Below, in pieces: positions 1,791 through 60,913 of a stretch of 64,000 nucleotides of DNA (position 1 is the first letter of the stretch; each line of letters opens with the position of its first letter). A model generated the notes under the pieces. That model ran no database searches. It was not told the DNA's origin and saw only the letters and a program-made list of their open reading frames with translations. Source of the DNA: Bacteroidales bacterium (GTDB taxonomy: Bacteria; Bacteroidota; Bacteroidia; Bacteroidales; WCHB1-69); contig JAFTCA010000041.1 of assembly GCA_017454945.1 (NCBI GenBank), positions 62,001 to 126,000 of the forward strand, in the 5' to 3' direction. The position numbers and the translations under genes were made by a program.

Positions 1791-1816
1791 TAGTGTATTA
1801 AAACACTAATACACTA
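1791..1816. promoter_or_regulatory. Probable operator of the YtrA-like GntR repressor
   Basis: This is a perfect inverted repeat. TAGTGTATTA (1791-1800) and TAATACACTA (1807-1816) are separated by 6 nt. It begins at the base right after the -7 box, so a bound dimer would cover the transcription start. The operon it precedes ends with a GntR-family regulator (3713-4087), and YtrA-subfamily regulators commonly repress their own ABC operon through a palindrome at the promoter. Binding by that protein is inferred. Confidence 0.7.
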
Positions 1817-1829
1817 AAACAATAAAGTT

Positions 1830-3712: not shown

Positions 3713-4087
3713 ATGGGAATGGATTTTAGCAGTAGCAGAGCCATTTATCTGCAGATTGTGGATTGGGTATGCGCTCAGATTGTGAGCGAGCACTGGCCCG
3801 TGGGCGAGCGAGTGTTGTCGGTGCGCGAACTGGGTGCACGCCTCGAAGTGAATCCTAATACGGTGATGCGCTCCTATGAGATGCTTCAAAACCAGCAGAT
3901 TATCGTCAATAGGCGAGGCGTGGGCTTCTTTGTGGCTGATGAGGCGGTGGAGAAGATCAAGCAGATGAAGAAAGAACAGTTTGTCAATGAAGAACTGCCG
4001 GCAATGTTTGCCAATATGGAGATGCTGGGCGTGCCGCTGTCGGAAGTGGAAGCGCTGTATGAGGAGTGGAAGAAGAAAAGGGAATGA
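3713..4087 (+). CDS. GntR-family transcriptional regulator, YtrA subfamily
   Basis: This 124-aa protein begins with a GntR winged helix-turn-helix (AIYLQIVDWVCAQI, then VRELGARLEVNPNTVMRSYE). It has only a short helical tail after residue 75 in place of a large effector domain. That compact layout defines the YtrA subfamily, whose members repress their own ABC transporter operons. It follows the permease after 1 nt with a GGAGG-like element upstream. The inverted repeat at 1791-1816, on top of the operon promoter, is its likely target. The inducing ligand is unknown. A heptanucleotide repeat island starts directly at its stop codon. Confidence 0.88.
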   Translation: MGMDFSSSRAIYLQIVDWVCAQIVSEHWPVGERVLSVRELGARLEVNPNTVMRSYEMLQNQQIIVNRRGVGFFVADEAVEKIKQMKKEQFVNEELPAMFANMEMLGVPLSEVEALYEEWKKKRE

Positions 4088-4262
4088 GAACAAAGAACAA
4101 AGAATAAAGAACAAAGAACAAATTCAGAATTCAAAAAGATATAGAGAATTATGGAATCATGGAATTATGGAAACATCTATGACTCAATAATTCTTAACTC
4201 CTTAACTTCTTAGTTTCTTAACTTTTTTCACTACTCACTATTCACTATTCACTTCTCACTTT
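4088..4262. repeat. Heptanucleotide repeat island A
   Basis: The island starts at the base after the GntR stop codon. It holds five GAACAAA-type words, an ATTCA/AATTC stretch, a GGAATTATGG triplicate, the words TTAACTCC, TTAACTTC and TTAGTTTC, and a CACTATT/CACTTCT array. The period is mostly 7 nt and in the middle 8 nt. The same words in the same order recur in islands at 31987, 42021 and 52781. I see no coding potential or promoter within it. Confidence 0.85.
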
Positions 4263-4334: not shown

Positions 4335-4892
4335 ATGGCAATATACACACGCACGGGTGACGGTGGCACCACTTCGATTGTGGGTGGTCGCAGAGTGCCC
4401 AAGAATGATTTGCGTTTGGAGGTTTATGGCACCCTCGACGAACTGAACGCCTTCGTCGGCTTGACCATTGCAGCAATGAAAGAGGCTGGCGTCAGTGCCG
4501 ATGGCGAGCTACAGAGAATACAGTCGCAATTGTTTTCCGCCGGCGGACTGGTATCAACCGACGTGGAATTGTGGCCCAAGTACTGGAATGTGGAGGAGGT
4601 GAAAGCCAATGTGACTTTCTTGGAACAGGCAATAGATCATTATACTGCTCAGCTAGAGCCACAACGCACATTCCTGTTGCCTGGCGGCTCGCAGGTGATT
4701 TCGTTGCTGCATGTCTGTCGCACAATCTGTCGCCGAGCCGAGCGCCATCTTTGCACTTTGCAGCAGTCCCAACCCGACTTTTCGGAGGTTGCTCAGTATC
4801 TCAATCGCCTTTCAGATTTCTTCTATATTTTGGCCAGATATTGTCACAAAATTCAGGGTGTCTCTGAAATTGATTGGAAATCAGTGAAATAA
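4335..4892 (+). CDS. Cob(I)yrinic acid a,c-diamide adenosyltransferase, PduO type
   Basis: This 185-aa protein belongs to the PduO/EutT-type ATP:cob(I)alamin adenosyltransferases, which transfer the adenosyl group of ATP to cob(I)alamin to form coenzyme B12. The N-terminal ATP-binding motif TRTGDGGTT (residues 5-13) is intact. So are the DELNAFVGL helix and the C-terminal RxxCRRAER region with LNRLSDFFYILAR. The gene stands alone between repeat island A and the DUF2795 gene with its own -7 box. I see no cobalamin riboswitch upstream. The organism therefore probably uses adenosylcobalamin, for example for methylmalonyl-CoA mutase in propionate formation. Confidence 0.93.
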   Translation: MAIYTRTGDGGTTSIVGGRRVPKNDLRLEVYGTLDELNAFVGLTIAAMKEAGVSADGELQRIQSQLFSAGGLVSTDVELWPKYWNVEEVKANVTFLEQAIDHYTAQLEPQRTFLLPGGSQVISLLHVCRTICRRAERHLCTLQQSQPDFSEVAQYLNRLSDFFYILARYCHKIQGVSEIDWKSVK

Positions 4893-29321: not shown

Positions 29322-30437
29322 ATGAAGAACATTGCGATTATCGGTGCTGGCTCGGCGGGCTTGTTTGCGGCCAAACTGCTTTCATCTTACGAAGATGTGA
29401 AAGTGACGGTTTTTGAAAAAGCGAAAAATCCGGGCACTAAGTTGAGGGCATCGGGCGGAGGAAAGGCCAACATATTGAATGCCAATGTTAAAGGAGATTG
29501 TTACAACAATCATCGCTTTATGGACGCCTTCCTTCAACGCACTGGCTATCAGACCATCTACAACGAGTTCTCGCGCATGGGCTTGCGCATGACCGTAGAT
29601 GACGAAAATCGCGTTTATCCGGCCACGCTCTTCTCCAAAACTGTCCTCGATGTGTTGCTTTCCAACCTCTCATCGCGGGTCTCTTTTCGTTGCGAGTGCA
29701 CTGTGAAGAAACTCGTTCATTGTGAGGGCAAATGGTATGTGAACGAGTTTCCCGAGGCTTACGATAATGTGCTGATGGCGTCAGGTTCGCCTGCCAATAT
29801 GATTGCCGCCAACCGTAAGGGAATTGCTGATTATTGGAAGGCGCTTCATCTGGACGACAAACCGTTTGAGCCGTCGCTGGTGGGCTTCAAGATCAAAGAT
29901 TATCCCAAAGAATTGTATGGCTGTCGCGCGAAAGCGGAAGTCTCTTTGTATCAAGAATCCACGTTGGTATGGAAAGAAATTGGCGAGGTGATGTTTAAGG
30001 AAGACGGAGTTTCGGGTATTGTGGTGATGAATCTTTCTTCTCGTTATAATCAATTGAAAAACAGGAAAAAGTGTCGCTTTTCGCTCAATTTCTTGTATGA
30101 TGATGAAGCGTTTGATGTCAAGGCGCATCTGTCCCGATTTCACGATTTGGCGGGTGTGTTGCACCCGAAACTGAACAAGCTCTACCAACGCAAGCCATTC
30201 GATTTGCGAAATTTTACATTAGCGATTGATAGTCTGTATGATATGGAATTTGCGCAGGTGTGCGCCGGTGGTATTAGTGTGGATGAGGTGACAGATACTT
30301 TCGAGTTGAAAAAATACCCAGGCCTCTATGCCGTGGGCGAGATGTTGGATATTGATGGCGTTTGTGGAGGCTACAATCTTTTCTTTGCCTTTGCGTCGGC
30401 ATACGAAGCAGTAAAAGCGATGACTCATGGACATTAA
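29322..30437 (+). CDS. HI0933-family NAD(P)/FAD-dependent oxidoreductase
   Basis: This 371-aa flavoprotein of the HI0933/BaiN family has an N-terminal Rossmann motif GAGSAGLFAAKLL (residues 7-19). The family motif KLRASGGGKANILNAN is complete. A C-terminal FAD-closing segment follows: CAGGISVDEVTDTFE and GEMLDIDGVCGGYNLFFAFASA. It is slightly shorter than the usual 390-410 aa. The reaction is unknown for most members. It overlaps the next flavoprotein gene by 11 nt, so the two are translationally coupled. The start codon is almost at the transcription start. Confidence 0.88.
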   Translation: MKNIAIIGAGSAGLFAAKLLSSYEDVKVTVFEKAKNPGTKLRASGGGKANILNANVKGDCYNNHRFMDAFLQRTGYQTIYNEFSRMGLRMTVDDENRVYPATLFSKTVLDVLLSNLSSRVSFRCECTVKKLVHCEGKWYVNEFPEAYDNVLMASGSPANMIAANRKGIADYWKALHLDDKPFEPSLVGFKIKDYPKELYGCRAKAEVSLYQESTLVWKEIGEVMFKEDGVSGIVVMNLSSRYNQLKNRKKCRFSLNFLYDDEAFDVKAHLSRFHDLAGVLHPKLNKLYQRKPFDLRNFTLAIDSLYDMEFAQVCAGGISVDEVTDTFELKKYPGLYAVGEMLDIDGVCGGYNLFFAFASAYEAVKAMTHGH

Positions 30438-31986
30438 AATCTCCAATTTCAAGATGCCCGTTACGACCCCCGTCAGTGCACTGAAGACGATGGTGATGAA
30501 CCGCTATCGCTTGAGTGGCAGTGAGGTGGCTGACTTTCGCATTCTACGAGCTTCGATTGATGCCCGCAAAAGGAGCAATGTGGAATATGAGTATGCGGTG
30601 ATGCTCTCGCTAACCACCGATTGTCCTGACTTGTTGTCCAAGCCGAATGTGTCGCTCTATGAGTCGCCTAAGCCGTTGGAGTACCACGAGTGGCCGCACG
30701 CACAGCGCCCTGTGGTTGTGGGCTTTGGACCTGCTGGCATGTTCGCAGCACTTTATCTGGCACGCTGTAATGCCCGCCCCATCATTATCGAGCGTGGTAG
30801 CCGCATCGACCAGCGCAAGCAGGAGGTACACCGCTTTATGGATGAAAAAGTGCTCAATCCCGATTCAAATGTGCAGTTTGGTGAGGGTGGCGCCGGCGCT
30901 TTTTCCGATGGCAAGCTGACCACCAACCTGCATAATGAATATATCGGCTTCGTGCTGGAGGAATTTTACAAACATGGCGCCACAGAGGATGTGCTTTATG
31001 CCGCCAATCCGCATGTGGGTACCGACTATCTTGAGAAAGTGGTTCGTAACATAAGGGAAGAGATCGCATCGTTAGGTGGTAGTTTCTATTTTAATACCCG
31101 CTTTGCCGACTTTGAGCCCGCAGGCGACGGCGTGCGCGTGAACTGTCACAATGGTTTGCAGTTCGAGACGGCGCATGTGCTGCTCTGTATCGGCCATTCA
31201 GCGCGCGACACCATCCGCCAGCTATATGCCAAAGGTATGCAGATGGAGGCCAAGAGTTTCTCGATGGGTGTGCGTGTGGAACATTTACAACACAAAATCA
31301 ATAAGATACAATACGGCAACTTTGCTCGTTACTTGCCGCCGGCATCATATAAAGGCGCCGTGCATTTGCCCAATGGCCGCGGCGTTTATACCTTCTGTAT
31401 GTGTCCTGGCGGTACGGTCATGGCCTCGACCAGTGAGCCCAACTCCATCGTGACCAACGGAATGAGCGAGAAGAGTCGCGACAAGGCCAATGCCAACAGT
31501 GCGCTGCTCGTGTCGGTTAATCCCGAAGACTACTACAAGGACAGCCCGATGGATGGCTTGGCCTATCAGGAAAAGTACGAGCAGTTGGCGTTTAGGGTAG
31601 GAGGTGATTACAGTGCACCGGCTAACCTGATGCGCGAGTTTATGCGTCGTGAGGTGGCCGACAAGCACCGCAATGTCAAGCCGTCGTATCCGCACGGTGT
31701 GATTTATTGCGATTTCAACCGCTGTTTGCCCGACTATGTGGTTAACTCTTTGCGAGAGGCTATTCCGTTGTTCGACAAGAAGTTGAATGGCTTTAACGAC
31801 CCCGATGCCGTGATGACGGGCGTGGAAACGCGTTCTTCATCGCCCGTGCGCATCCTTCGCGACGAGCAGCGTCAAAGCAATGTCCATGGCATCTATCCCG
31901 TAGGTGAAGGTGCCGGCTATGCAGGAGGCATCACCAGTGCCGCCATCGACGGACTGAAAACTGCTATCTCGATAGTAGAGAGTTGA
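30427..31986 (+). CDS. FAD-dependent dehydrogenase (COG2509 family)
   Basis: This 519-aa flavoprotein has an N-terminal domain of about 95 residues (KISNFKMPVTTPVSALKTMV), then the FAD motif VVGFGPAGMFAALYLA. The family signatures GEGGAGAFSDGKL, MCPGG and GEGAGYAGGITSAAIDG follow. These are typical of the COG2509 group of uncharacterised dehydrogenases. Its start lies inside the end of the HI0933-type gene, indicating coupled translation and perhaps related substrates. No electron-transfer partner is visible nearby. A repeat island begins directly at its stop codon. Confidence 0.87.
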   Translation: MDIKISNFKMPVTTPVSALKTMVMNRYRLSGSEVADFRILRASIDARKRSNVEYEYAVMLSLTTDCPDLLSKPNVSLYESPKPLEYHEWPHAQRPVVVGFGPAGMFAALYLARCNARPIIIERGSRIDQRKQEVHRFMDEKVLNPDSNVQFGEGGAGAFSDGKLTTNLHNEYIGFVLEEFYKHGATEDVLYAANPHVGTDYLEKVVRNIREEIASLGGSFYFNTRFADFEPAGDGVRVNCHNGLQFETAHVLLCIGHSARDTIRQLYAKGMQMEAKSFSMGVRVEHLQHKINKIQYGNFARYLPPASYKGAVHLPNGRGVYTFCMCPGGTVMASTSEPNSIVTNGMSEKSRDKANANSALLVSVNPEDYYKDSPMDGLAYQEKYEQLAFRVGGDYSAPANLMREFMRREVADKHRNVKPSYPHGVIYCDFNRCLPDYVVNSLREAIPLFDKKLNGFNDPDAVMTGVETRSSSPVRILRDEQRQSNVHGIYPVGEGAGYAGGITSAAIDGLKTAISIVES

Positions 31987-32124
31987 TAGTTAAAGAAGTT
32001 ATTAGTTATTAGTTATTAGTTGTTAGTTTTTAGCGATACTAAAACACAATAACTCTTAACTCCTTAGTTTCTTAGTTTCTTAGTTTCTTAACTTCTTAAC
32101 TGTTCACAGCTCACTATTCACTAC
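31987..32124. repeat. Heptanucleotide repeat island B
   Basis: The island begins right after the stop of the COG2509 gene. It runs through TTATTAG/TTGTTAG words, a TTAGCGATA junction, TTAACTCC, TTAGTTTC (three times) and TTAACTTC words, and finally a CACTATTCAC stretch. The junction and word order match island E at 52781 read on the opposite strand. Confidence 0.85.
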
Positions 32125-32153
32125 AAAAAAAAGGACGCACTGTGTACGTCCTA
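32121..32153 (-). terminator. Terminator of the YtxH/holin-X operon
   Basis: AGGACG (32132-32137) pairs with CGTCCT (32147-32152). On the minus strand the hairpin is followed by a run of T residues (the A-tract at 32125-32132), and it lies 23 nt beyond the last gene of the operon. Confidence 0.8.
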
Positions 32154-40573: not shown

Positions 40574-40613
40574 TAAATTAAAAAGATGAGGTTATCAGAA
40601 TTTTTGATAACCT
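40574..40613 (-). terminator. Terminator downstream of ispG
   Basis: AGGTTATCA (40589-40597) pairs with TGATAACCT (40605-40613). On the minus strand the stem is followed by CTTTTTAATTT. It lies about 28 nt beyond the ispG stop, just after repeat island C. Confidence 0.7.
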
Positions 40614-40652
40614 AAATAACTAACAACTAAAGTCTAATGTCTAACGTCTAAA
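40613..40652. repeat. Heptanucleotide repeat island C
   Basis: This is a run of 7-nt words (TAACAAC, TAAAGTC, TAATGTC, TAACGTC, TAAAGTT). The array continues into the end of ispG, whose stop codon (40641-40643, minus) and last residues lie inside it. Confidence 0.8.
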
Positions 40653-42017
40653 GTTTCTCTTCCATTCCTCACATAACTCTTCCAGCTTGCACAATGCTTC
40701 GTCAAACGGCAGGTTGTCGGTGAGTCGTTCTTTGCCGCGGTACACCACCACTTTGCCTTCGCCACCGCCGACAATGCCGAAGTCGGCGTCGGCCATTTCG
40801 CCAGGGCCGTTGACAATGCAGCCCATTACACCGATTTTGAGGCCAGGATAGTTGGCAAATCGCTGTTTTACAATCTCTAACACCGACATGATGTCATAGC
40901 GGGTGCGCCCGCAAGAGGGACAAGAGATGAATTCGGTGCGGCTCATCTTGATACGGCAGGCTTGCAGGATGGTATCTTCTAATTGTTGCAAGGTGTTTTG
41001 ATCGAAATTTGCGGCTTCAATCTTCAGATTGCGGATTTTCTCGCGGTAATGTTCATAGCCTGTGATGCTCGCCACATCGGCAATTAGCGCGTCCATGTCG
41101 GTGGCATCTGAGCAGACTGTCAGCGTTCGGTGTTCGTCGATGTGGTAAGGAATTTGTCCTGCGCTGATGTCGGCCTTGAGTTTCTCCACGCGATTGACCA
41201 GGCAGTGGGCGAAGGGTGTCTCATTCTCCGGCGGTTCGGTGAGCGATACGCGGATGGTGTTGCCAATGCCGTTGAGCAACAGTGCGCCAATGCCCGCTGC
41301 CGACTTGCAGCGCCCTTCCAGTCCAGCGCCCGCCTCGGTAACGCCCAAATGGAGAGGATAAACCGTGCTTCTGTCGGTCATCATCTTGTGTAACAGCTGG
41401 GTAGCTTCAATCATGGTGCTCACATTGCTCGATTTCATTGAGAGCACGATGTTGTCGAACTGGTTCTGTTGGCAGATCTCTACCCATTCCATCGCCGATT
41501 GCGCCATGGCCAGCGGTGTGTTGCCGTAGCGGCCTATAATGCGGCGACTGAGCGAGCCGTGGTTGGTGCCGATACGGAGGACGGTGCCGTGCTCGCGACA
41601 AATGTCGAACAGCGGCTTGGCCTTGGCTGCCATCTTGTCCAATGCTGCCTGATATTCGCTGTCGGACATGTTCTCGTCGGCAGCGCTCTGGCGATCCACG
41701 TAGTTGCCCGGGTTGACACGCACTTTCTCCACAATGCTGGCACACGCTTCGGCTACGGCGGGACTGAAATGCACATCGGCAATCAGTGGCACGTTGCAGC
41801 CGTCGTGGCGCAGTCTGTTCTTAATTTGCTCTAATGCAGCCACTTCGTGTAAGGTCGGTACGGTGATGCGCACCATCTCGGCGCCAGCAGCTACCATACG
41901 CTTGGCTTGCGCCACTGTGGCTTCCACATCGTTCGTGTCGGTGTTGGTCATCGACTGAACGACAATAGGACAGCCGGAGCCCAAAGAGATGTTGCCAATT
42001 TTTACGACGGTATCCAT
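40641..42017 (-). CDS. ispG: 4-hydroxy-3-methylbut-2-enyl diphosphate synthase with short insert
   Basis: IspG (GcpE) reduces ME-cPP to HMBPP with a [4Fe-4S] cluster in the MEP pathway. The N-terminal TIM barrel is complete (PIVVQSMTNTDTND, PLIADVHFSPAVA, KVRVNPGNY). The cluster-binding domain has cysteines in ISCPSCGRTRYD and GCIVNGPGE. Total length is 458 aa. Enteric enzymes have about 370 aa, and plant and most Bacteroidetes enzymes above 600 because of a large middle domain. Here only about 90 residues (about 285-365) replace that domain, an intermediate form. The last residues RNFRR are encoded by heptanucleotide words. The gene begins beside island D. Confidence 0.9.
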   Translation of the reverse strand: MDTVVKIGNISLGSGCPIVVQSMTNTDTNDVEATVAQAKRMVAAGAEMVRITVPTLHEVAALEQIKNRLRHDGCNVPLIADVHFSPAVAEACASIVEKVRVNPGNYVDRQSAADENMSDSEYQAALDKMAAKAKPLFDICREHGTVLRIGTNHGSLSRRIIGRYGNTPLAMAQSAMEWVEICQQNQFDNIVLSMKSSNVSTMIEATQLLHKMMTDRSTVYPLHLGVTEAGAGLEGRCKSAAGIGALLLNGIGNTIRVSLTEPPENETPFAHCLVNRVEKLKADISAGQIPYHIDEHRTLTVCSDATDMDALIADVASITGYEHYREKIRNLKIEAANFDQNTLQQLEDTILQACRIKMSRTEFISCPSCGRTRYDIMSVLEIVKQRFANYPGLKIGVMGCIVNGPGEMADADFGIVGGGEGKVVVYRGKERLTDNLPFDEALCKLEELCEEWKRNFRR

Positions 42018-42020
42018 AAG

Positions 42021-42315
42021 GAATTTATAATTAATAATTTACAATTTACAATGTATAATTAGTTATTAGTGAATAGTGAGAAGTGAAAAGTGAGGAGTTA
42101 AGAAGTTAAGGAGCTAAGAAACTAAGAAACATTGTATTATCGTTTTTTTTAATCGCTAACAACTAACAACTCCTTTGAATTTGTTCTTTGTTCTTTGTTC
42201 TTTGAATTTTGAATTTTGAATTTCCGTTCTCCGCTCTCCGTTCTCCGCTCTCCGTTCTCCGTTCTCATCTCTCATCTCTCATCTCTCATCTCTCATCTCT
42301 CATCTCTTCACTCTC
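42021..42315. repeat. Heptanucleotide repeat island D
   Basis: This is the largest island and fills the gap between ispG and the FecE-type ATPase gene. Read on the minus strand from the ATPase stop, it has GAGATGA words, GAGAACG/GAGAGCG words, GAATTCA-like words, three GAACAAA words, TTCAAAGGAG, TTGTTAG words with TTAGCGAT, TTCTTAG/TTAACTTC words, a CACTATTCAC stretch and TTGTAAA words. The last ATPase codons (RRVKR and stop) are within it. Confidence 0.85.
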
Positions 42316-44980: not shown

Positions 44981-45010
44981 CTTAACTCTCATCTCTCATC
45001 TCTCCGTTCC
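44981..45010. repeat. Heptanucleotide repeat island H (short)
   Basis: Read on the minus strand, GGAACGG, GAGAGATGAGAGATGAG and TTAAGAG words follow immediately after the stop codon of the rarA-porP gene (45011-45013). The words match those in island D. Confidence 0.7.
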
Positions 45011-46036
45011 CTACATCACTTTATACGGGCACGGTTCCTTGCCGGGGATGATTCGCTTGTTTTTCTTGAAGATGTAAGAAAGCGACACTTCGTAGCCGCC
45101 GCGGGCTTTGGAGGCGCGTGCCAGTGTGGAGACGTTGAGGTCGTAAGCCACGCTGAAGCGCAGGTCGCGCCAGTCGAAGAAGAAACTGGCGATAATAGCG
45201 TCGTTCACGCGGTAGAAGAGGCCTCCGCCGATGGCAAAGTCGCGGTACTTCTGATAGCCCCACTCGTATTCGAACAAACTGCCGAACAGGATTTCATAGT
45301 GCTTCCCTTGGAATGCGGTGTAAACCATCGGGTGAATGAAAATATTTCGTTTGGCGGGGAAGCGGGCAGAGAAAGTGCCTACATATTTGCGGTACAGCTT
45401 GGCGCTGGCGCCGTTGAAATGAGTCTGGTTGGGTTCGGTGAGGTGGTTGACGGTAAAGCCGGCCGACAAGGCGATATCCTCACGTGGTGTGCAACTCCAT
45501 ACCAAGCCGGCAGAGCAGTCGAAGAACAGGTATTTCTCCCTGCCGAAATCTTCTGATATAGGATTGTTGGGGTCAAAGAGGCCGCCGATGTATTGCTCGT
45601 CGAATGTCAGGGCTGAGTAGTCGATGGTGTGCTGGAAGATGCCACCAGCAAAGCCGATGCCGATCTTGTTGCGATTGCGGCGGTCAAGGCTCTTGATAAG
45701 CGATAAGGAGCCGCTGACTTGGAAGATGTTGTATTTTGAGTCGCCGGCGCGGTCGTTGTGAACCTGCACGCCAAGGCCTACCAGTGTGCGGCTCCTGCGT
45801 CCCTTGACGATGGGTGCGTCAAAGCCGCCCGACACGGAGGTGTAGGGCTTTGTGATGGCCAGCCACTGCAGCTTGTGGTTGAGGGTGACTCTGAAAGTTC
45901 CGTTGATGGCGCCCGTCATGGCCGGGTTGATACTGGCGGGCATGGTGTAGTATTGCGAATAGTGCATATCTTGACTCCAGCCAAAGAAGAAGCAGGAGAG
46001 GAATGCGAAGAGCAGTACGACGTATTTGTATTTTTC
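45011..46036 (-). other. PorP/SprF-family module inside the rarA reading frame
   Basis: This sub-region holds the signal-peptide-like segment (from KEKYKYVVLLFAF) and about 320 residues of the PorP/SprF barrel, the full length of that family. It would be annotated as a separate gene if an initiation codon existed. In the fused frame the n-region KEKYKY is shared with the end of RarA. The nearby PD40-OmpA gene at 43066 is the typical partner of such barrels. Confidence 0.75.
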
Positions 46037-47287
46037 TTTCCAACAGTTTTTCAGATAACGGCGCAGGTCGTTCTCGCGGGCATTATTCTGCGGTTCGTAG
46101 AACTTCTTGCCGCTGATGGATTCGGGCAGAAACTCCTGCTCTACAAAGTTGTGATCGTAAGCGTGGGCGTATTTGTAGCCTTTGCTGTAGTCCAACTCTT
46201 TCATCAACTTGGTGGGGGCGTTGCGCAAGTGCAACGGCACGGGTAGGTCGCCAGTCTTCTGCACCCACTCGTAGGCATCGTCAATGGCCATGATGGCCGA
46301 GTTGCTCTTGGGCGAGGAGGCAAGGTAGATGGCGGTTTGCGCCATGACAATGCGGGCTTCGGGCATGCCGATGTGGTGCACCGCCTGAAAGCAGTTGTTG
46401 GCCAGCAGCAGGGCGTTGGGATTGGCATTGCCTATGTCTTCAGAGGCCAGAATGATCATTCGCCGTGCGATGAACAGCGGATCCTCGCCAGCTGACAGCA
46501 TCCGCGCCATCCAATAGACCGCCGCATTGGGGTCGCTGCCGCGCACCGACTTGATGAACGCGGAGATAATGTCGTAATGGTTCTCGCCTTTTTTGTCGTA
46601 GATGGCTAAGTTCTTCTGGATAACCTTCTGCACCCACTCGTTGGTCAGCGTAACCACGCCGTCTTTAGGCTTTTGCATGCTAACAGTCAACTCAATGGCA
46701 TTGAGCAGTTTGCGCGCGTCACCGCCCGAAATGCGTAGAAGCGCTTCGTTTTCAGGAATTTCGACCTTCAATTGCTGCTCGTCGAGGTAATATTGCTGCG
46801 CAATGGCGATAATCTTCTCTAATTCATTCTTTTCTAATGATTTGAGAATGTAAACCTGACAGCGTGACAGGAGAGGGGAGATGACTTCAAAAGAGGGGTT
46901 TTCAGTCGTGGCGCCAATCAGCGTGACCAGTCCCTGCTCTACGGCTCCCAGCAACGAGTCTTGCTGCGCCTTTGAGAAACGATGGATTTCGTCGATGAAC
47001 AGGATGGTCTTGCCGTCGTTTTGACGTGCTTTGTCGAACACTTCGCGAATCTCTTTCACGCCCGAACTGATGGCACTGAGCATGTAGAACTGCGAGTTGG
47101 TCAACTCGGCAATCAGCAGTGCTAAGGTGGTCTTTCCCACGCCGGGAGGTCCCCACAGGATCATCGAGTGTAGCTGGCCGCTTTCAATGGCGTTGCGCAA
47201 GATGGCACCTTCTCCCATAAGATGCTCCTGGCCAATGTAATGGTCTAAGGATGTGGGACGTAAGATTTCAGCCAGCGGTTTTGTCAC
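45011..47287 (-). CDS. rarA: RarA (MgsA) AAA+ ATPase fused in frame to a PorP/SprF outer-membrane domain
   Basis: A single uninterrupted frame of 758 aa from GTG 47287. Residues 1-422 are a full-length RarA/MgsA, the replication-associated recombination AAA+ ATPase. They show ILWGPPGVGKTTLALL (Walker A), ILFIDEIHRF (Walker B), ATTENPSFEV (sensor 1), and the C-terminal DIGNANPNAL and DYSKGYKYAHAYDHNFVEQ motifs. The usual RarA end RRYLKNCWKEKYKY is at 409-422. Without a stop the frame continues as a signal peptide (YVVLLFAFLSCFFFGWSQ) and a complete PorP/SprF barrel (QDMHYSQYYTMPASINPAMTG ...). No ATG, GTG or TTG in this frame lies close upstream of the signal peptide. A cytosolic ATPase fused to an exported barrel is topologically odd, so a real fusion, an unusual internal start or a sequence error are all possible. 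Confidence 0.85.
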   Translation of the reverse strand: MTKPLAEILRPTSLDHYIGQEHLMGEGAILRNAIESGQLHSMILWGPPGVGKTTLALLIAELTNSQFYMLSAISSGVKEIREVFDKARQNDGKTILFIDEIHRFSKAQQDSLLGAVEQGLVTLIGATTENPSFEVISPLLSRCQVYILKSLEKNELEKIIAIAQQYYLDEQQLKVEIPENEALLRISGGDARKLLNAIELTVSMQKPKDGVVTLTNEWVQKVIQKNLAIYDKKGENHYDIISAFIKSVRGSDPNAAVYWMARMLSAGEDPLFIARRMIILASEDIGNANPNALLLANNCFQAVHHIGMPEARIVMAQTAIYLASSPKSNSAIMAIDDAYEWVQKTGDLPVPLHLRNAPTKLMKELDYSKGYKYAHAYDHNFVEQEFLPESISGKKFYEPQNNARENDLRRYLKNCWKEKYKYVVLLFAFLSCFFFGWSQDMHYSQYYTMPASINPAMTGAINGTFRVTLNHKLQWLAITKPYTSVSGGFDAPIVKGRRSRTLVGLGVQVHNDRAGDSKYNIFQVSGSLSLIKSLDRRNRNKIGIGFAGGIFQHTIDYSALTFDEQYIGGLFDPNNPISEDFGREKYLFFDCSAGLVWSCTPREDIALSAGFTVNHLTEPNQTHFNGASAKLYRKYVGTFSARFPAKRNIFIHPMVYTAFQGKHYEILFGSLFEYEWGYQKYRDFAIGGGLFYRVNDAIIASFFFDWRDLRFSVAYDLNVSTLARASKARGGYEVSLSYIFKKNKRIIPGKEPCPYKVM

Positions 47288-47316: not shown

Positions 47317-47400
47317 AATATAAATATCACATCTGTGAAAAAAAAATGAAAATGTTGTGTAAGAAATTATATGGGAAGTGTATATCTGTTGGTCTTGAGC

Positions 47401-47707
47401 CACTTCCGCGGCGAACAAGTGTAGTGTTCCATAGGATATTCATAGCGCGCCGCGGTTAAGTATTGGCAGTTTTCGTACACCCCAGATTACGCTACGCTCA
47501 TCTGGGGTTAATAGGAGTATGCCTCTTCGAGGCATTTGTCATCGAATAAGTTGCACAGTTTTAGAGTGTCCCGAAGGGACAATATTCTATTAACCCCACA
47601 CAAGCGACTGAAAGGAGCGTAGTGTGGGGAGGGCAAGGAGTGAGGCTCCTATCGCGGCGCAGAAAATATGGGCTATGAAACAACACTCGTTATCGCCGCG
47701 AAAGTGA
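47401..47707. mobile_element. Non-coding element of long imperfect inverted repeats (MITE- or REP-like)
   Basis: Most of the 558-nt gap between rarA and the debranching enzyme is one imperfect palindrome. The left arm starts CACTTCCGCGGCG (47401) and the right arm ends CGCCGCGAAAGTG (47707). Each arm of about 140 nt carries three parts in mirror order: a CCGCGGCG/CGCCGCGG-type motif, a CCCC...GGGG hairpin (47480-47507 left, 47594-47629 right) and a TTC- or GAA-loop hairpin (47520-47534, 47567-47581). The two arms share GGGGTTAATAG on opposite strands. No convincing reading frame is present. Mobility is inferred from structure only. I see no target-site duplication. The remaining flanks (47317-47400 and 47708-47820) hold nothing I recognise. 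Confidence 0.62.
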
Positions 47708-47845: not shown

Positions 47846-49792
47846 ATGAGCTATATTGAGTTTGATAAGGAAAAAATAGTCAATATCACCTATGCGAAAA
47901 ACAGGGAGATACTCCGATGCAGCCGTACAGGCTCCTTCGCCTGTTCAACGCTTCTCGGACTGAATACACGAAAATATCACGGACTTTTCATTGTCCCTCA
48001 GGATAATATCGATCATGAACGTCATCTGCTCGTCTCAGGTCTGAATGAGACGGTTATTATCGACGACATGGATTTCCCCATCTATATCCACCAGTACAAA
48101 GGTGGTGTCATTGAACCCAAAGGCAATAAGTTCCTGCAGAAGTTTGTCGCCGATCCGGTGCCGACCTTCTTTTACCGTGTTGGTAAGTTTAATTTCAAGA
48201 AGGAGATTCTCTTTATGCGCAGCGAAGACAGGGTGCTGCTCAAATACTCCATCCTTGATGATTTTGAGTCGGCTACATTGCAACTGCAGCCGCTGCTGGC
48301 TTTCCGTCAGATTCACCGCCTTACGTTCATGAACGATGTTGCCAATACCGGCTATGAATCTGTTGAAGGTGGTGTAAAATATTGTTTGTACGATAATTAT
48401 ACACCAGTTTATATTCAAACATCCGCACCGCTGTATTACGAACATGACCCCGTATGGATTAAAAATGTGGAGTATGAGGAAGAGATTAACCGCGGCTATG
48501 AGGGCTGCGAGGATTTGTTGGCGATGGGACGGCTGAATATGACGGTGAAACAGAAGGAAATCTACCTGTCGGTGGGTATTGAACCTATCAATCCGGCCGA
48601 CATAGAGCAGATGTATATCGAAGAATCGAAGAACCGCATCACCCGAAATACATTCTTCAATTGCCTTGAAAATGCTGCCGACCAGTTTATTGTGACCAGA
48701 AACGGGAAAACGCAGATTATGGCAGGCTATCCTTGGTTTGGCCGTTGGGGGCGCGACACTTTCATCTCTCTGCAAGGTCTTACCCTGGACCGCGACAAGC
48801 CAGAACTGTGCAAGGAAATCCTCGACGATATGCTGTCGGAGATGGAAAACGGCCTCTTCCCCAATATTGGCGAAGGCGAACAAGTGGCCTATAACTCGGT
48901 GGACGCGCCGCTCTGGTTTATCCGCGCCCTGCAACAATATGCCGACTATACGCATACCGAAAAGAAAATTTGGGACGAGTACGGCACAGTGCTGAAAACC
49001 ATCTTGTCGGCCTACAAAAAAGGCTCGCTCTTCAATATCCGTATGCTCGACAATGGTCTGATTTATGCTGGTGCAGATGGCGTGGCCCTAACCTGGATGG
49101 ATGCCGTCATTGACGGACGTCCCGTGACTCCGCGTACGGGTTGTCAAGTGGAGATTAACGGCTTGTGGTACAACGCATTGAGATTCTGTATAGAAATGGC
49201 GAAACTGGCAGGTGATGAGTCGTTTGTGGATGAATGGAAGGATCTGGCTCAGAATTTCCCCGCTGTCTTCAAAGAGACTTTCTGGTCGAAAGAGATTGGC
49301 TGGCTGGCCGATTATGTGAATGGCGACTACCGCAATTTCCAAGTCCGCCCCAATATGATGCTCATCACAGGGCTGCCGTATGTTCCTATCAGCGAAAAGA
49401 TTAGACAGCTGATTCTGAAGAAGACGATGGAGGAGTTGCTGGTGACGAAAGGCATCCGCACCTTGTCGCCGAACGATCCGGAATATAAAGGCCATTACGG
49501 TGGCACGCAGGCAGAGCGCGACGCCGAGTATCATCAGGGCACCGCTTGGCCCTGGTTGTTAGGACCGTTTTCAGACGGTATGCTGGCTGTCTATCAAAAG
49601 TCGGCGCTGTCGCTGATAGAGCGGCTTCTCTACAATTTTGAAGATTGCATGCGCGATTATGGCGTTTCCACCATCGCCGAAGTGTATGACGGCGATCCGC
49701 CTTATCGTCCCAACGGAGCCATATCGCAGGCGTGGAGCGTGGCTGCCTTGTTGCACATGAAACGACTTTTGGAAAATGCTAAAAGAAAATAG
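47846..49792 (+). CDS. Glycogen debranching enzyme (amylo-alpha-1,6-glucosidase, GH133-type)
   Basis: This 648-aa protein has the N-terminal GDE domain (NREILRCSRTGSFACSTLLG, LNTRKYHGLFIVPQ) and a C-terminal (alpha/alpha)6 barrel. The barrel has GYPWFGRWGRDTFISLQG, DAPLWFIRAL and YHQGTAWPWLLGPFSDG, including the acidic residues expected for hydrolysis of alpha-1,6 branches. It is the first gene of the operon with a GT4 synthase (23-nt gap) and a GH57 enzyme. This trio is the standard Bacteroidales glycogen-metabolism unit and acts in the cytoplasm. No signal peptide is present. Confidence 0.92.
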   Translation: MSYIEFDKEKIVNITYAKNREILRCSRTGSFACSTLLGLNTRKYHGLFIVPQDNIDHERHLLVSGLNETVIIDDMDFPIYIHQYKGGVIEPKGNKFLQKFVADPVPTFFYRVGKFNFKKEILFMRSEDRVLLKYSILDDFESATLQLQPLLAFRQIHRLTFMNDVANTGYESVEGGVKYCLYDNYTPVYIQTSAPLYYEHDPVWIKNVEYEEEINRGYEGCEDLLAMGRLNMTVKQKEIYLSVGIEPINPADIEQMYIEESKNRITRNTFFNCLENAADQFIVTRNGKTQIMAGYPWFGRWGRDTFISLQGLTLDRDKPELCKEILDDMLSEMENGLFPNIGEGEQVAYNSVDAPLWFIRALQQYADYTHTEKKIWDEYGTVLKTILSAYKKGSLFNIRMLDNGLIYAGADGVALTWMDAVIDGRPVTPRTGCQVEINGLWYNALRFCIEMAKLAGDESFVDEWKDLAQNFPAVFKETFWSKEIGWLADYVNGDYRNFQVRPNMMLITGLPYVPISEKIRQLILKKTMEELLVTKGIRTLSPNDPEYKGHYGGTQAERDAEYHQGTAWPWLLGPFSDGMLAVYQKSALSLIERLLYNFEDCMRDYGVSTIAEVYDGDPPYRPNGAISQAWSVAALLHMKRLLENAKRK

Positions 49793-52313: not shown

Positions 52314-52787
52314 ATGAAGATAAAGCTGATCATTGTTGGCAAAGAGAGTGCTGAGGTGTTCGACGATGCCATTGACCAATACACTAAAAAACTGAAATTC
52401 TATATCCCTTTTGAGACGGTGGTGGTGCCTTATCTGAAAAAGACCGCCGCGCTCTCGGTAAGTGAGCAGAAAATCCAGGAAGGCGAAGCAATCTTGAAGA
52501 AAATCGACCCGCAGGACTATGTGGTTCTGCTCGATGAACATGGCAAACAGAAAACGTCCGTGGCTTTTTCCGAATTCCTACGCAAGCAGATGTGTAGCAG
52601 CCTGAAAACATTGGTGTTTGTTGTCGGAGGCCCTTACGGCTTCTCGCAGCCAGTGTATCAGCGTGCCAATGAGCAACTTTCGCTTTCCCTTATGACTTTT
52701 CCCCATATGATGACGCGCCTTATCTTCATTGAACAACTCTACCGCGCCTTCACCATCATTAAAGGGGAACCGTATCATCATGAGTAG
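52314..52787 (+). CDS. rlmH: 23S rRNA (pseudouridine1915-N3)-methyltransferase
   Basis: This 157-aa SPOUT methyltransferase uses S-adenosylmethionine to methylate pseudouridine 1915 of helix 69 in 23S rRNA. The knot region is intact: FVVGGPYGFSQPVYQRAN and LSLMTFPHMMTRLIFIEQLYRAF, with the ending GEPYHHE. The length is standard. It is the last gene of the glycogen transcript. Its stop codon TAG (52785-52787) is itself part of a heptanucleotide word (TGAGTAG) that opens island E. Confidence 0.95.
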   Translation: MKIKLIIVGKESAEVFDDAIDQYTKKLKFYIPFETVVVPYLKKTAALSVSEQKIQEGEAILKKIDPQDYVVLLDEHGKQKTSVAFSEFLRKQMCSSLKTLVFVVGGPYGFSQPVYQRANEQLSLSLMTFPHMMTRLIFIEQLYRAFTIIKGEPYHHE

Positions 52788-52930
52788 TGAGGAGTGAGAA
52801 GTGAATAGTGAGAAGTGATTAGAGTTAAGAAGTTAAGAAACTAAGGAGTTAAGAATTATCGCTAACAACTAAAAACTAACAACTAAAAACTCCTTTGAAT
52901 TATACATTATTCATTGTAAATTATACATTG
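52781..52930. repeat. Heptanucleotide repeat island E
   Basis: From the rlmH stop the words are TGAGTAG, TGAGGAG, TGAGAAG, TGAATAG and TGATTAG. TTAAGAAG/AACTAAGG words, a TATCGCTAA junction, AACTAAAAACTAAC words, CTCCTTTGAA and TTGTAAA/TACATTG words follow. Read on the minus strand the order equals that of islands B and D. The last TTG (52914-52916) serves as -33 element of sufC. Confidence 0.85.
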
Positions 52931-58247: not shown

Positions 58248-58868
58248 ATGGTGAATCCTGAAATTGTTGATTATGTCGAGTCGACGGTCATCCCGTTGTA
58301 CAAGACCTTTGACAGGGCACATGGCGAGGAACATGTGCGCACCGTCATTCGCGACAGTCTGGAGCTGGCCGACTTCTGCCATGCTGATGCCAATATGGCG
58401 TATGTGGTGGCCGCTTATCACGATGCTGGCATGCCCGAAGGTCGCGAAACGCATCACCTGACCTCGGCACGATTGCTGCTTGCCGACGCCAACCTGCGGA
58501 AATGGTTTACAGAGGAGCAGTTGCAAGTGATGAAGGAGGCGGTGGAAGACCATCGCGCCTCGTCGAAAAATCCGCCGCGTACCGTCTATGGCCGCATTGT
58601 TGCCGATGCCGACCGCGACCTGACCAACCTGACGCCACTGAAGAGGACCGTGCAGTTCGGCTTGAAGCACTATCCCGAATTGGGTAGGGAAGAGCAGTAC
58701 GAGCGCTTCTGTCAGCACTTGCAGGAGAAGTATGCCGAAGGTGGTTATCTTCAACTGTGGATTGCCGGCTCTGGCAAGGAAAAACAACTGAAAGAACTGC
58801 GTGAAGTGATAGCTGACCCTACCAGCCGACGCGAGGCGTTTAACTTTTTTTATGAAAAAGAGATTTAA
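58248..58868 (+). CDS. HD-domain phosphohydrolase
   Basis: This 206-aa protein of the HD superfamily has metal ligands visible in HGEEHV, YHDAG (the HD pair) and the C-terminal DADRD. The helix pattern resembles bacterial HD hydrolases acting on nucleotides or phosphate monoesters. No regulatory domain is attached. The gene is preceded by the aquaporin terminator. Repeat island G begins exactly after its TAA. The substrate is unknown. Confidence 0.83.
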   Translation: MVNPEIVDYVESTVIPLYKTFDRAHGEEHVRTVIRDSLELADFCHADANMAYVVAAYHDAGMPEGRETHHLTSARLLLADANLRKWFTEEQLQVMKEAVEDHRASSKNPPRTVYGRIVADADRDLTNLTPLKRTVQFGLKHYPELGREEQYERFCQHLQEKYAEGGYLQLWIAGSGKEKQLKELREVIADPTSRREAFNFFYEKEI

Positions 58869-58896
58869 CTTCTCACCACTCACTATTCACTTCATA
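58869..58896. repeat. Heptanucleotide repeat island G (short)
   Basis: The words CTTCTCA, CCACTCA, CTATTCA and CTTCATA start at the base after the HD gene stop codon and use the same CACTATTCAC vocabulary as islands A, B, D and E. Confidence 0.72.
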
Positions 58897-58905
58897 ACTT
58901 TTTCT

Positions 58906-58936: not shown

Positions 58937-60817
58937 ATGAAAAGAATTGTTCTGCTATTCTTTGTTTTGGCGATGACGCTGAGTGGTCTTCAGGCCCAAA
59001 CGTGGCGTCCTGCAGGTGACAATATCCTAACTCCGTGGGGTGAGAATCTGAATCCGTTGAATGTGCATCCCGAATATCCGCGGCCGCAGATGGTGCGCGC
59101 GGATTGGCTTTCGCTGAACGGTCAGTGGGATTACGCAATTACCTTTGCCAATGCAGATCTTCAGATATTGTATCAGAAAAAGTGGGATGGCAAGATTTTG
59201 GTGCCATTTCCTGTGCAGTCGGCGCTATCGGGCGTGGGTAAACATGTTAGCGACGAAGAGGCGCTGTGGTATCATCGCACGATTACGGTGCCTAAGAACT
59301 GGAATGGCAAGCACATATTGTTGAATGTGGGCGCTGCCGACTGGAAAGCAGAAGTGTTTGTCAATGGCCGGAAGGCTGGCGAACACACGGGCTGCTATGC
59401 CTCATTTTCGATAGACATTACCCCGTATCTGCTCAAGAGTGGCAAGCAAGAGTTGGTCATCAAGGTGACCGACGGCGGTGACAAATCCTACCAGCCCAAA
59501 GGCAAGCAGGTGGATAGTCCGCGAGGTATCTACTACACGCCCGTAACTGGCATTTGGCAAAGCATTTGGCTGGAGCCGGTCAATGCTTCTCATCTGCAAC
59601 GCTATACCGTAGTATCGGATATCGATAAGCAGCAACTGCACATAGCTGCGGAGAAGGTCATGCCCCAAACGGGCGATAAACTTCGCTTTGAACTGCTGTC
59701 GGGAGGCGAGGGCTATTCACCTGAAAGACCTTCCACCACCGTTATTGCTTCGGCTGAAACGGAAGGCAAGGAGGTGACTCTAACGGTGCCCAATGTTAAA
59801 TTGTGGTCACCTGACAGCCCCTATTTGTATGGATTGCGCATTTCCCTGGTGCGCGACGGCCAGGTTGTTGACCAGATTCAAGGCTACACCGCCATGCGCA
59901 AGCTCTCGGAGTTTGTCGATGGTCGCCGCTTCCATCGCTTTGCGCTTAACAACCAGCCAATTTTCCACTATGGTCCGCTTGATCAGGGCTGGTGGCCCGA
60001 CGGCCTTTACACAGCACCGACCGACGAAGCACTGAAGTTTGATATTGTCAAGACCAAAGAGTTGGGCTTCAATATGATACGTAAACATGTGAAGGTGGAA
60101 CCCGACCGCTGGTACTATTGGTGCGATGTGTATGGCATCATGGTTTGGCAGGATATGCCGTCGATGGTGTGCGGTACCAGTCATCATACAGCCAAGTGGG
60201 AGCACAGCCAGAAACGCACTTCTTACGGCCTGGGCACCGACGAGGTGATTCCTGAGGAGTGGAAAGCCAATTTCTACAAAGAGTGGAAAGAGATTATCGA
60301 CCAGCACCAAGCCTTCCCCTGCATTGTGATGTGGGTGCCTTTCAACGAAGCGTGGGGACAGTTTGACACGAAGGAGGTGACCGATTTTACTTACCAGTGC
60401 GACAGTACGCGTTATCTCAATCCCGCTTCGGGCGGCAACTTTAGAAATTGTGGCAATATCATTGATTATCACACATATCCGGAGCCGAGCTTGCGCGTCT
60501 TCATTCGCGATTATATGAATGTGATTGGCGAGTACGGCGGCATCGGCTTTAGAGTAAATGGTCATCTTTGGAAGCAAGAGGGCGACTATTCCTACCTGAA
60601 AATGCAGAATGCTGATGATGTGTTCAATAAGTATGCCGATTATGCTGAGATGCTGAAGGACTACATCAAAGTGGGCATCACGGGCGCCGTCTATACGCAA
60701 ACCACCGATGTGGAAACGGAAACCAACGGTTTGATAACTTACGACCGCAAAGTGGTAAAATTGAACCCCGCCAAGATGAAAGCCGTGAACCAAGGGGTGA
60801 TAGGAGCGATGAAGTAA
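58937..60817 (+). CDS. Secreted glycoside hydrolase family 2 protein
   Basis: This 626-aa protein has a signal peptide (MKRIVLLFFVLAMTLSGLQAQ). It has the GH2 sugar-binding domain (about 60-200; SLNGQWDY, WYHRTITVPKNW, VFVNGRKAGEHTGCY), an Ig-like middle and a TIM barrel. Acid/base Glu is in VPFNEAWGQF and the nucleophile Glu in VIGEYGGIGF. GH2 enzymes act on beta-galactosides, mannosides, glucuronides or arabinosides. The activity here cannot be fixed. The barrel is compact and lacks extra C-terminal domains. It stands alone, not in a SusCD polysaccharide utilisation locus. Repeat island F starts at its stop. Confidence 0.9.
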   Translation: MKRIVLLFFVLAMTLSGLQAQTWRPAGDNILTPWGENLNPLNVHPEYPRPQMVRADWLSLNGQWDYAITFANADLQILYQKKWDGKILVPFPVQSALSGVGKHVSDEEALWYHRTITVPKNWNGKHILLNVGAADWKAEVFVNGRKAGEHTGCYASFSIDITPYLLKSGKQELVIKVTDGGDKSYQPKGKQVDSPRGIYYTPVTGIWQSIWLEPVNASHLQRYTVVSDIDKQQLHIAAEKVMPQTGDKLRFELLSGGEGYSPERPSTTVIASAETEGKEVTLTVPNVKLWSPDSPYLYGLRISLVRDGQVVDQIQGYTAMRKLSEFVDGRRFHRFALNNQPIFHYGPLDQGWWPDGLYTAPTDEALKFDIVKTKELGFNMIRKHVKVEPDRWYYWCDVYGIMVWQDMPSMVCGTSHHTAKWEHSQKRTSYGLGTDEVIPEEWKANFYKEWKEIIDQHQAFPCIVMWVPFNEAWGQFDTKEVTDFTYQCDSTRYLNPASGGNFRNCGNIIDYHTYPEPSLRVFIRDYMNVIGEYGGIGFRVNGHLWKQEGDYSYLKMQNADDVFNKYADYAEMLKDYIKVGITGAVYTQTTDVETETNGLITYDRKVVKLNPAKMKAVNQGVIGAMK

Positions 60818-60913
60818 TTTACAATTTACAATTCACAATTTATAATTTACAATTGATAATTACAATTCATAATTAAGAACAAAGAACAAAGAACAAAGAG
60901 CAAAGAACAAATT
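60818..60913. repeat. Heptanucleotide repeat island F
   Basis: Directly after the GH2 stop come TTTACAA, TTCACAA, TTTATAA and TTGATAA words, then five GAACAAA-type words as in islands A and D. It leaves only 21 nt before the second FISUMP gene, and no -7 box is visible there. Confidence 0.83.

Follow-up and report, generated by a model that had tools for sequence, protein, structure and literature searches.

The bacterial genome described here carries hundreds of intergenic islands of 7- and 8-base tandem repeats, and many of them are diverged copies of one dispersed element, in which short words follow one another in a recurring order and with a preferred orientation to the genes. The best reading, held with confidence somewhat above even, is that the arrays were born by slippage, were spread by copying as an ordered element and were kept where the transcript was unharmed. 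A dedicated function is not needed for the islands. The order of the modules and their polarity had been missed by the initial annotation of this DNA.

The window, that is the whole stretch of 64,000 nucleotides under analysis, is part of contig C5 of a metagenome-assembled genome of 2.62 Mb (124 contigs, 96.65% complete). The nearest RlmH proteins (at most 62% identity) place the host in Bacteroidales, and no other genome of the same genus was present among the genomes searched. The sequence sampled amounts to 837 kb, about one-third of the genome, and comprises most of C5, all of C64 and C70, most of C99, two-thirds of C86 and 20-kb pieces of C7 and C52; since the last two were picked for their matches, the array densities given below are slightly too high. 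Genes were called with our own hexamer-coding script, and the start positions are approximate. Arrays were accepted at a TRF score of at least 40 genome-wide and at least 30 in the window, and the merging of adjacent arrays gave 122 islands in the 837 kb.

In this sample, TRF found 142 intergenic versus 8 genic arrays of period 7 and 64 versus 0 of period 8 (206 versus 8 for both periods together), yet genic DNA makes up six times the amount of intergenic DNA. The multiples 14, 16, 21 and 24 accompany these two periods, while periods 5, 6, 9, 10 and 11 are at background. The islands therefore have the property by which heptamer repeats are recognized, with 7-nt units in excess over other periods and mainly in intergenic DNA. 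Approximately 12 word families recur, among them AAAATTC at 36 sites, AACTTCTT at 30, AAAGAAC at 29 and AAGTGAG at 15, and the octamer pair TTCTTAACTTCTTA has 66 copies in the genome versus 0 for the reversed control.

When the islands are put in one orientation, the same order of words on one strand, G>A>B>(I or C)>(E,D)>(F,L), is repeated over them. The module words are GTTGAAT/GTTTAAT (G), AGTGAGA/AGTGAAT (A), GTTAAGAA...ACTAAGGAGTTAAG (B), GTTATGGA (I), CTAACAA (C), TTTGAAT (E), TTTGTTC (D), AATTGTA (F), GTGCATT (L), AACGGAG (H) and GAGATGA (K). Among 120 clusters, the order was observed in all cases for A>D (32:0), A>E (30:0), B>D (28:0), B>E (27:0), B>F, A>F and B>I (16:0 each), A>I (15:0), I>E (14:0) and I>D (13:0), and it was looser for A>B (36:5) and G>A (11:3). 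E and D have no mutual order, H and K have no polarity, and modules almost never lie on opposite strands within a cluster. As the copies share descent, these counts are not independent trials.

The eight islands noted earlier in the window are real. Period-7/8 arrays were recovered by TRF at seven of the eight places (4087-4260, 31997-32101, 40627-40654, 42022-42315, 44986-45004, 52781-52929 and 60815-60911), and the words of the eighth (58869-58896), which is too short and degenerate for a TRF score of 30, are visible by eye. All eight adjoin the 3' end (stop codon) of a gene. The names given to the neighbouring genes proved right where they were tested with Pfam (GntR, FAD-dependent protein, GcpE=IspG, ABC ATPase, RarA+PorP/SprF, RlmH and HD), and Rfam gave no match within the window. 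The islands, with module letters in brackets, and one further array are listed below.

4087..4262, minus strand: island 1, an element copy antisense to the upstream gene. It starts within the TGA of the GntR gene (3713-4087); read on the plus strand (sense), its words are AGAACAA x5 (D), AATTCAG/AATTCAA (E), a GAATTATG-type octamer (I), TTCTTAAC/TTCTTAGT x4 (B) and TCACTAT/CACTTCT (A). The promoter-like motif TACCTTTG and then a cobalamin adenosyltransferase gene at 4335 follow.
31987..32128, minus strand: island 2, in a convergent spacer and antisense to the gene whose stop is nearest (30427-31986), with AGTTATT x5 (C-like), TTCTTAGT/TTCTTAAC (B) and TCACTAT (A).
40613..40654, no strand: island 3, CTAACAACTAAAGTCTAATGTCTAACGTCTAAAG, overlapping the stop of ispG (40641-42017, minus strand).
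42021..42315, plus strand: island 4, the longest of the window, with AATTTAC (F), AGTGAAA/AGTGAGA (A), TTAAGAAG (B), CTAACAA (C), TTTGTTC (D), TTTGAAT (E), TCCGTTC (H) and TCTCATC (K) on the plus strand. It occupies the spacer from the stop of the ABC ATPase gene (42300, minus strand) to the start of ispG (42017, minus strand; 4 bp away), with A-B-C-D-E antisense to both genes.
44981..45010, no strand: island 5, short, CTCTCAT x2.7 plus CTCCGTT, directly adjoining the stop of the RarA-PorP gene (45011-47218, minus strand).
52781..52930, plus strand: island 6, an element copy in the minority (sense) orientation, with TGAGAAG/TGAATAG (A), GTTAAGAA (B), ATTATCG, CTAACAA (C) and TTTGAATTATACATT. 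The last codon and the stop of rlmH (52314-52787) lie within the first unit, and the promoter-like motif TATCTTTG follows the island.
58869..58904, minus strand: island 7, weak, CTCACC ACTCACT ATTCACT TC (A words), following the stop of the HD gene (58248-58868).
60815..60911, minus strand: island 8, AATTTAC x7 (F) and then AAGAACA x5 (D), with the TAA stop of the gene inside the first AATTTAC unit and without a promoter-like motif ahead of the next start (60935).
1799..1826, no strand: a counter-example array, TAAAACAC x3.5 with period 8, which is not an element word.

The last of these reaches to 3 bp from the start codon of ORF 1830-2666, while the nearest stop is 220 bp away. In the gene beside island 5, a single frame (45011-47218, minus strand) encodes RarA/MgsA (residues 19-392) and a PorP/SprF type IX secretion protein (415-715), that is, a cytoplasmic ATPase together with an outer-membrane protein, and it is either a true fusion or the product of a lost stop or an assembly error.

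The 122 islands are distributed over tandem (77), convergent (16) and divergent spacers (14), with 12 called genic and 3 at stretch edges; the sample holds 213 tandem, 42 convergent and 74 divergent spacers of at least 60 bp. Of the 77 same-strand islands, 34 begin no more than 15 bp from a stop, where random placement gives 20.0 (maximum of 31 in 2000 permutations), and 15 have their end equally close to the next start, where 19.9 are expected. At tandem genes, arrays reach a density of 0.17 over the 20 bp that follow stops and of 0.06 over the last 20 coding bases; in the 20 bp before starts it is 0.046 for tandem and 0.006 for divergent genes. The rule that each island begins at a stop codon, as the initial annotation had it, holds for the eight islands noted in the window; genome-wide, the comparison with random placement that it had suggested reveals an excess at stops, but many islands begin elsewhere, 14 of them lying in divergent spacers, and the link to stop codons is a bias and no rule. 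The C-terminal ends of proteins where arrays adjoin are not shifted (median +1 amino acid versus 0 without arrays), and the idea that arrays truncate or extend proteins was discarded on this ground. Arrays at orthologous 3' ends were shared in two cases, which is not significant.

The copies resemble each other well beyond single words. A threshold of at least 80% identity over 60 bp or more gave 316 matches, a total that includes a few same-place overlaps and REP-like stretches, and pairs of islands share 80-93% identity over 120-190 bp, non-periodic stretches included. The matches of the best distinct island pairs lie almost wholly in intergenic DNA. Since long stretches are shared, the non-periodic ones among them, copying is evident. 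In the 837 kb, 50 clusters with at least three polarised modules were counted, corresponding by extrapolation to approximately 150 per genome. The ends of the element vary, with copies starting with G, A, B or H and finishing with I, C, D, E, F or L; no palindrome, terminal inverted repeats or fixed ends of the kind that mark REP/BIME or MITE sequences were apparent in it, and folding of the arrays showed no excess over shuffles. Indels between copies are only in mild excess at lengths of 7, 8 and 16. Pairwise similarity has no clear dependence on distance (p 0.09), and local gene conversion was rejected for this reason.

The orientation of the copies is strongly biased. The islands had been described as occurring on both strands relative to gene direction, which is true of the window but hides an antisense bias in the genome as a whole, multi-module copies in tandem spacers being antisense to the genes in a ratio of 38:7 (binomial p 3e-6). 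Relative to the nearest stop, copies are antisense 4:1 in convergent and 5:4 in divergent spacers. Within tandem spacers, the ratio is 9:1 where a TAnnTTTG promoter-like motif follows and 16:3 where copies abut the next start. On contig C5, GC skew is positive throughout and the orientation of the element follows the gene strand; it is thus tied to the gene ending there and not to replication, and a replication-strand effect was rejected, as orientation follows genes within one replichore.

It is possible to read these facts as the work of a non-autonomous mobile element, a mosaic moved by a trans-encoded enzyme and inserted beside stops in fixed orientation, although we consider this unlikely. 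Dispersed copies confined to intergenic DNA, their polarity with respect to the nearest stop, and the presence in the genome of six genes of the Y1 transposase family and one reverse transcriptase would all fit such an element. However, its first and last modules are variable, the Y1 genes inspected have palindromic REP repeats of their own on their flanks instead of heptamer islands, and in viral contigs nothing but the B word, or an A word on its own, was found, in no order. Mobilisation by Y1/RAYT genes was rejected because of the different repeats found at the genes inspected, and phage carriage because the viral contigs hold single words and no grammar. As no fixed ends are apparent, transposition seems a less likely route than ectopic gene conversion or recombination among arrays.

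At three loci (L240, L241 and L242; G000 contigs C26, C86 and C105), Y1-transposase (RAYT-like) genes are followed by palindromic repeats that differ for each gene, e.g., GCAACCCCTTGCGGGGTTG and CCGCACACCTACGGCGTGCGG, and the genome has six Y1 matches. In the window, a palindrome-rich, REP-like dispersed repeat (CCCCAGATTACGCTACGCTCATCTGGGG; CCCCACACAAGCGACTGAAAGGAGCGTAGTGTGGGG) lies at 47380-47700, upstream of the gene at 47846, and a part of it, approximately 60 bp long, has matches of about 80% at many places in G688.

The preferred orientation gives a G-poor, weakly folding transcript. The sense strand of the arrays contains 8.3% G and 17.1% C, compared with 17.4% G and 18.0% C in array-free spacers, and the sense RNA of array-rich tandem spacers folds with -0.075 kcal/mol per nt, where -0.143 is expected from GC. 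Stop triplets amount to 7.6 per 100 nt on the sense strand (7.3 in shuffles) and 10.1 on the antisense strand, so that the preferred orientation is the stop-poorer one. The suggestion that a 7-nt period serves to place stops in all three frames is not borne out by these numbers, and an all-frame stop cassette was rejected, as sense stops are not above shuffles.

A transcript of this kind could also be a 3'-end signal, in which unstructured sense RNA, with its C residues 7-8 nt apart, would recruit Rho in the manner of a rut site, or else a 3' processing factor, in place of a hairpin terminator; this we hold to be distinctly unlikely. Rho is encoded in the genome, YC pairs recur at spacings of 7 and 8 (a consequence of the period), and the islands of the sampled genome have the features of a rut site, with a sense RNA that is richer in C than in G, unstructured and located after a stop. 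Terminator-like hairpins were found in 1 of 40 array-containing (>15% array) tandem spacers versus 42 of 122 array-free ones, and at stops in promoter-less tandem spacers of the sampled genome and G609, a genome of a neighbouring genus in the same family, in 2 of 61 with arrays versus 55 of 183 without. The islands are hence not hairpin terminators themselves (stable hairpin plus T run), since their sense RNA folds less than expected and hairpins are nearly absent. A replacement of terminators at unit ends was likewise rejected, as there is no significant depletion of hairpins next to arrays at likely unit boundaries, neither in convergent spacers (7/18 versus 57/106, p 0.31) nor in tandem spacers with a promoter-like motif (3/19 versus 44/143, p 0.28). 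The depletion lies in promoter-less tandem spacers, where arrays are commonest and where termination would cut an operon; this places the islands mainly inside probable operons and argues against a terminator. Moreover, islands are no commoner in convergent (16/42) than in tandem spacers (77/213). In G609, the base composition is the opposite, the sense strand being G-richer (18% G, 9% C; 19:8). A G-poor transcript is therefore no rule of the family, and a Rho site was dismissed as a family-wide explanation.

Slightly more doubtful still is a role in post-transcriptional regulation, of the sort suggested for TAACTGA repeats, with the words recognised by an RNA-binding protein or taking part in the translation of the gene downstream. 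Many copies reach to within a few bases of the start codon, and their leader is G-poor with few start triplets, islands that fill the spacer up to this point having 1.7 start triplets per 100 nt versus 8.0 on the other strand. Translation start in Bacteroidota is largely without Shine-Dalgarno pairing, which would favour such a role. Against it, the density of start triplets equals that of base-shuffled arrays, the words differ between genera, and the antisense bias is no weaker at islands that have a promoter-like motif between them and the next gene. As the bias persists there, the leader of the next gene is not its cause, and a downstream-leader effect was discarded as the origin of the polarity. 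The bolder proposal that the ordered 7/8-base words are a dedicated intercistronic or 3'-UTR code read by an RNA-binding protein, Rho or a nuclease, or else a new class of stop-aimed mobile element made of heptamer ladders, is in our estimate a long shot.

The preferred reading, slippage followed by copying and selective retention, would proceed in three steps. First, arrays of 7 or 8 bases would arise and change by replication slippage favouring this unit length, slippage being the presumed source of the selectivity for period that is observed. Second, one composite array, G-A-B-(I/C)-(E,D)-(F/L), would have been copied to many intergenic sites without flanking genes, after which the copies would diverge by gain and loss of units and by point change. 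Third, insertions would survive mainly where nothing is disrupted, that is, just after stops and in same-strand spacers lacking promoters and terminators, which are probably operon-internal, and mostly in the orientation with a G-poor, unstructured transcript. Location and orientation are both seen in the copies; the selective reason may be that a spacer which is transcribed has to be free of folding, termination and start codons. It speaks against this reading that tolerated neutral DNA alone does not explain how the order of modules survives the turnover of units. Common descent explains the kept order, but the similarity between copies has no clear dependence on distance.

Relatives share the period and not the words. 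In 815 kb of G609, period 7 is dominant (47 intergenic versus 7 genic arrays), the words are different (ACTCTAA, ATCTCTA), and 27 of 45 non-genic islands begin within 15 bp of a stop. Period-7 arrays with further words are found in G688 and G512. The B word is present in G512 and G609 without ordered modules, and it occurs 0 or 1 times per genome in the other 394 genomes of the phylum that were searched. The stop of rlmH is followed by unrelated period-7 arrays in four other genomes (L073, L075, L090 and L098), and among 80 rlmH loci (494 kb) period 7 is the commonest short period, with 34 arrays. The initial annotation had held that arrays found equally at gene starts would refute the link to stops; at the rlmH loci of other Bacteroidota this is partly so, with 15 arrays within 15 bp of a stop and 14 of a start (rough ORF calls), but it is not the case in the sampled genome. 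Arrays with other words in relatives indicate that the period and the tandem-spacer habitat are widespread, whereas the words and the ordered element are local, and the word grammar is specific to this genome. Two single arrays were also recorded, an array of approximately 300 bp of GTTAAGAA/GTTAAAAA octamers (the B word, with no other modules) at L276 (G632, another family of the order), and a long heptamer array, AACAAGG x28.7, near a contig start at L157:5-205 (G650, same family).

That the islands are an artefact of assembly or binning is very improbable. The genus is represented by one genome only, and several contigs end in heptamer or octamer arrays (e.g., C25, C57, C64, C76, C115 and C124), from which it follows that the islands probably break short-read assembly. 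However, arrays also lie inside long contigs with intact flanking genes and in more than 100 places, and similar ones are found in other genera and assemblies.

Bacterial heptamer repeats are a decades-old observation for which there is no accepted function or model of spread. Approximately 150 (extrapolated) diverged and polarised copies in one genome offer many parallel cases in which to test how such repeats are born, copied, oriented and selected. Their place, after stops and in same-strand spacers, and their period persist while the words change between lineages.

The STRR of heterocystous cyanobacteria are intergenic tandem 7-mers, as are the present islands, and the likeness pointed out earlier holds, as do the heptamer and octamer words of the islands, their intergenic position and their bias to the 3' ends of genes; to our knowledge, no ordered multi-word element with polarity is described among the STRR. 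The REP/BIME sequences with their RAYT (Y1) transposases are likewise dispersed intergenic repeats, in the same genome, but they are palindromic and flank Y1 genes, whereas the islands are direct tandem arrays without a palindrome. According to Mrazek et al. (2007), as cited in PMC4679880, heptamers are the most abundant class of long repeats in most genomes, and polymerase slippage was given there as their cause.

TAACTGA heptamers were reported from marine Beggiatoaceae, from cyanobacteria and from five Bacteroidetes, one of which, Paludibacter, belongs to Bacteroidales; some of these heptamers overlap stop codons (MacGregor 2015, PMC4679880). In a study of Xanthomonas and Nostoc, heptamers had a strand bias, were scarce between divergent genes and had no function found, and the GGGAATC heptamers of Xanthomonas lie 0-50 bp after stops or overlap them (PMC4692102). 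The earlier remark that no described function was known in Bacteroidales is thereby qualified. The present islands resemble the TAACTGA repeats as intergenic, lineage-specific 7-nt arrays with orientation bias, some stop overlap and mixed heptamers, the last in some genomes only in the TAACTGA case (PMC4679880). Those repeats have one dominant word and lie mostly just upstream of start codons in forward orientation (PMC4679880), unlike the present islands with approximately 11 words in fixed order, antisense to the upstream gene and with octamers included. TAACTGA is absent among the exact tandem words listed for the sampled genome, and neither the word nor a site just upstream of starts characterizes its islands. 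Proximity to or overlap with stops, strand preference, scarcity between divergent genes, turnover of word and length between relatives and the lack of a function found are shared with the GGGAATC / GGGGA(C/T)T repeats, which are one-word G-quadruplex formers (PMC4692102), whereas the present islands are ordered, built of several words and AT-rich, with weak folding on the sense strand. A fixed order of approximately 11 words and copying at the level of the element were not found in a limited literature search, and the ordered, directional design appears new; the islands themselves belong with the known heptamer-repeat families (TAACTGA, GGGAATC and STRR).
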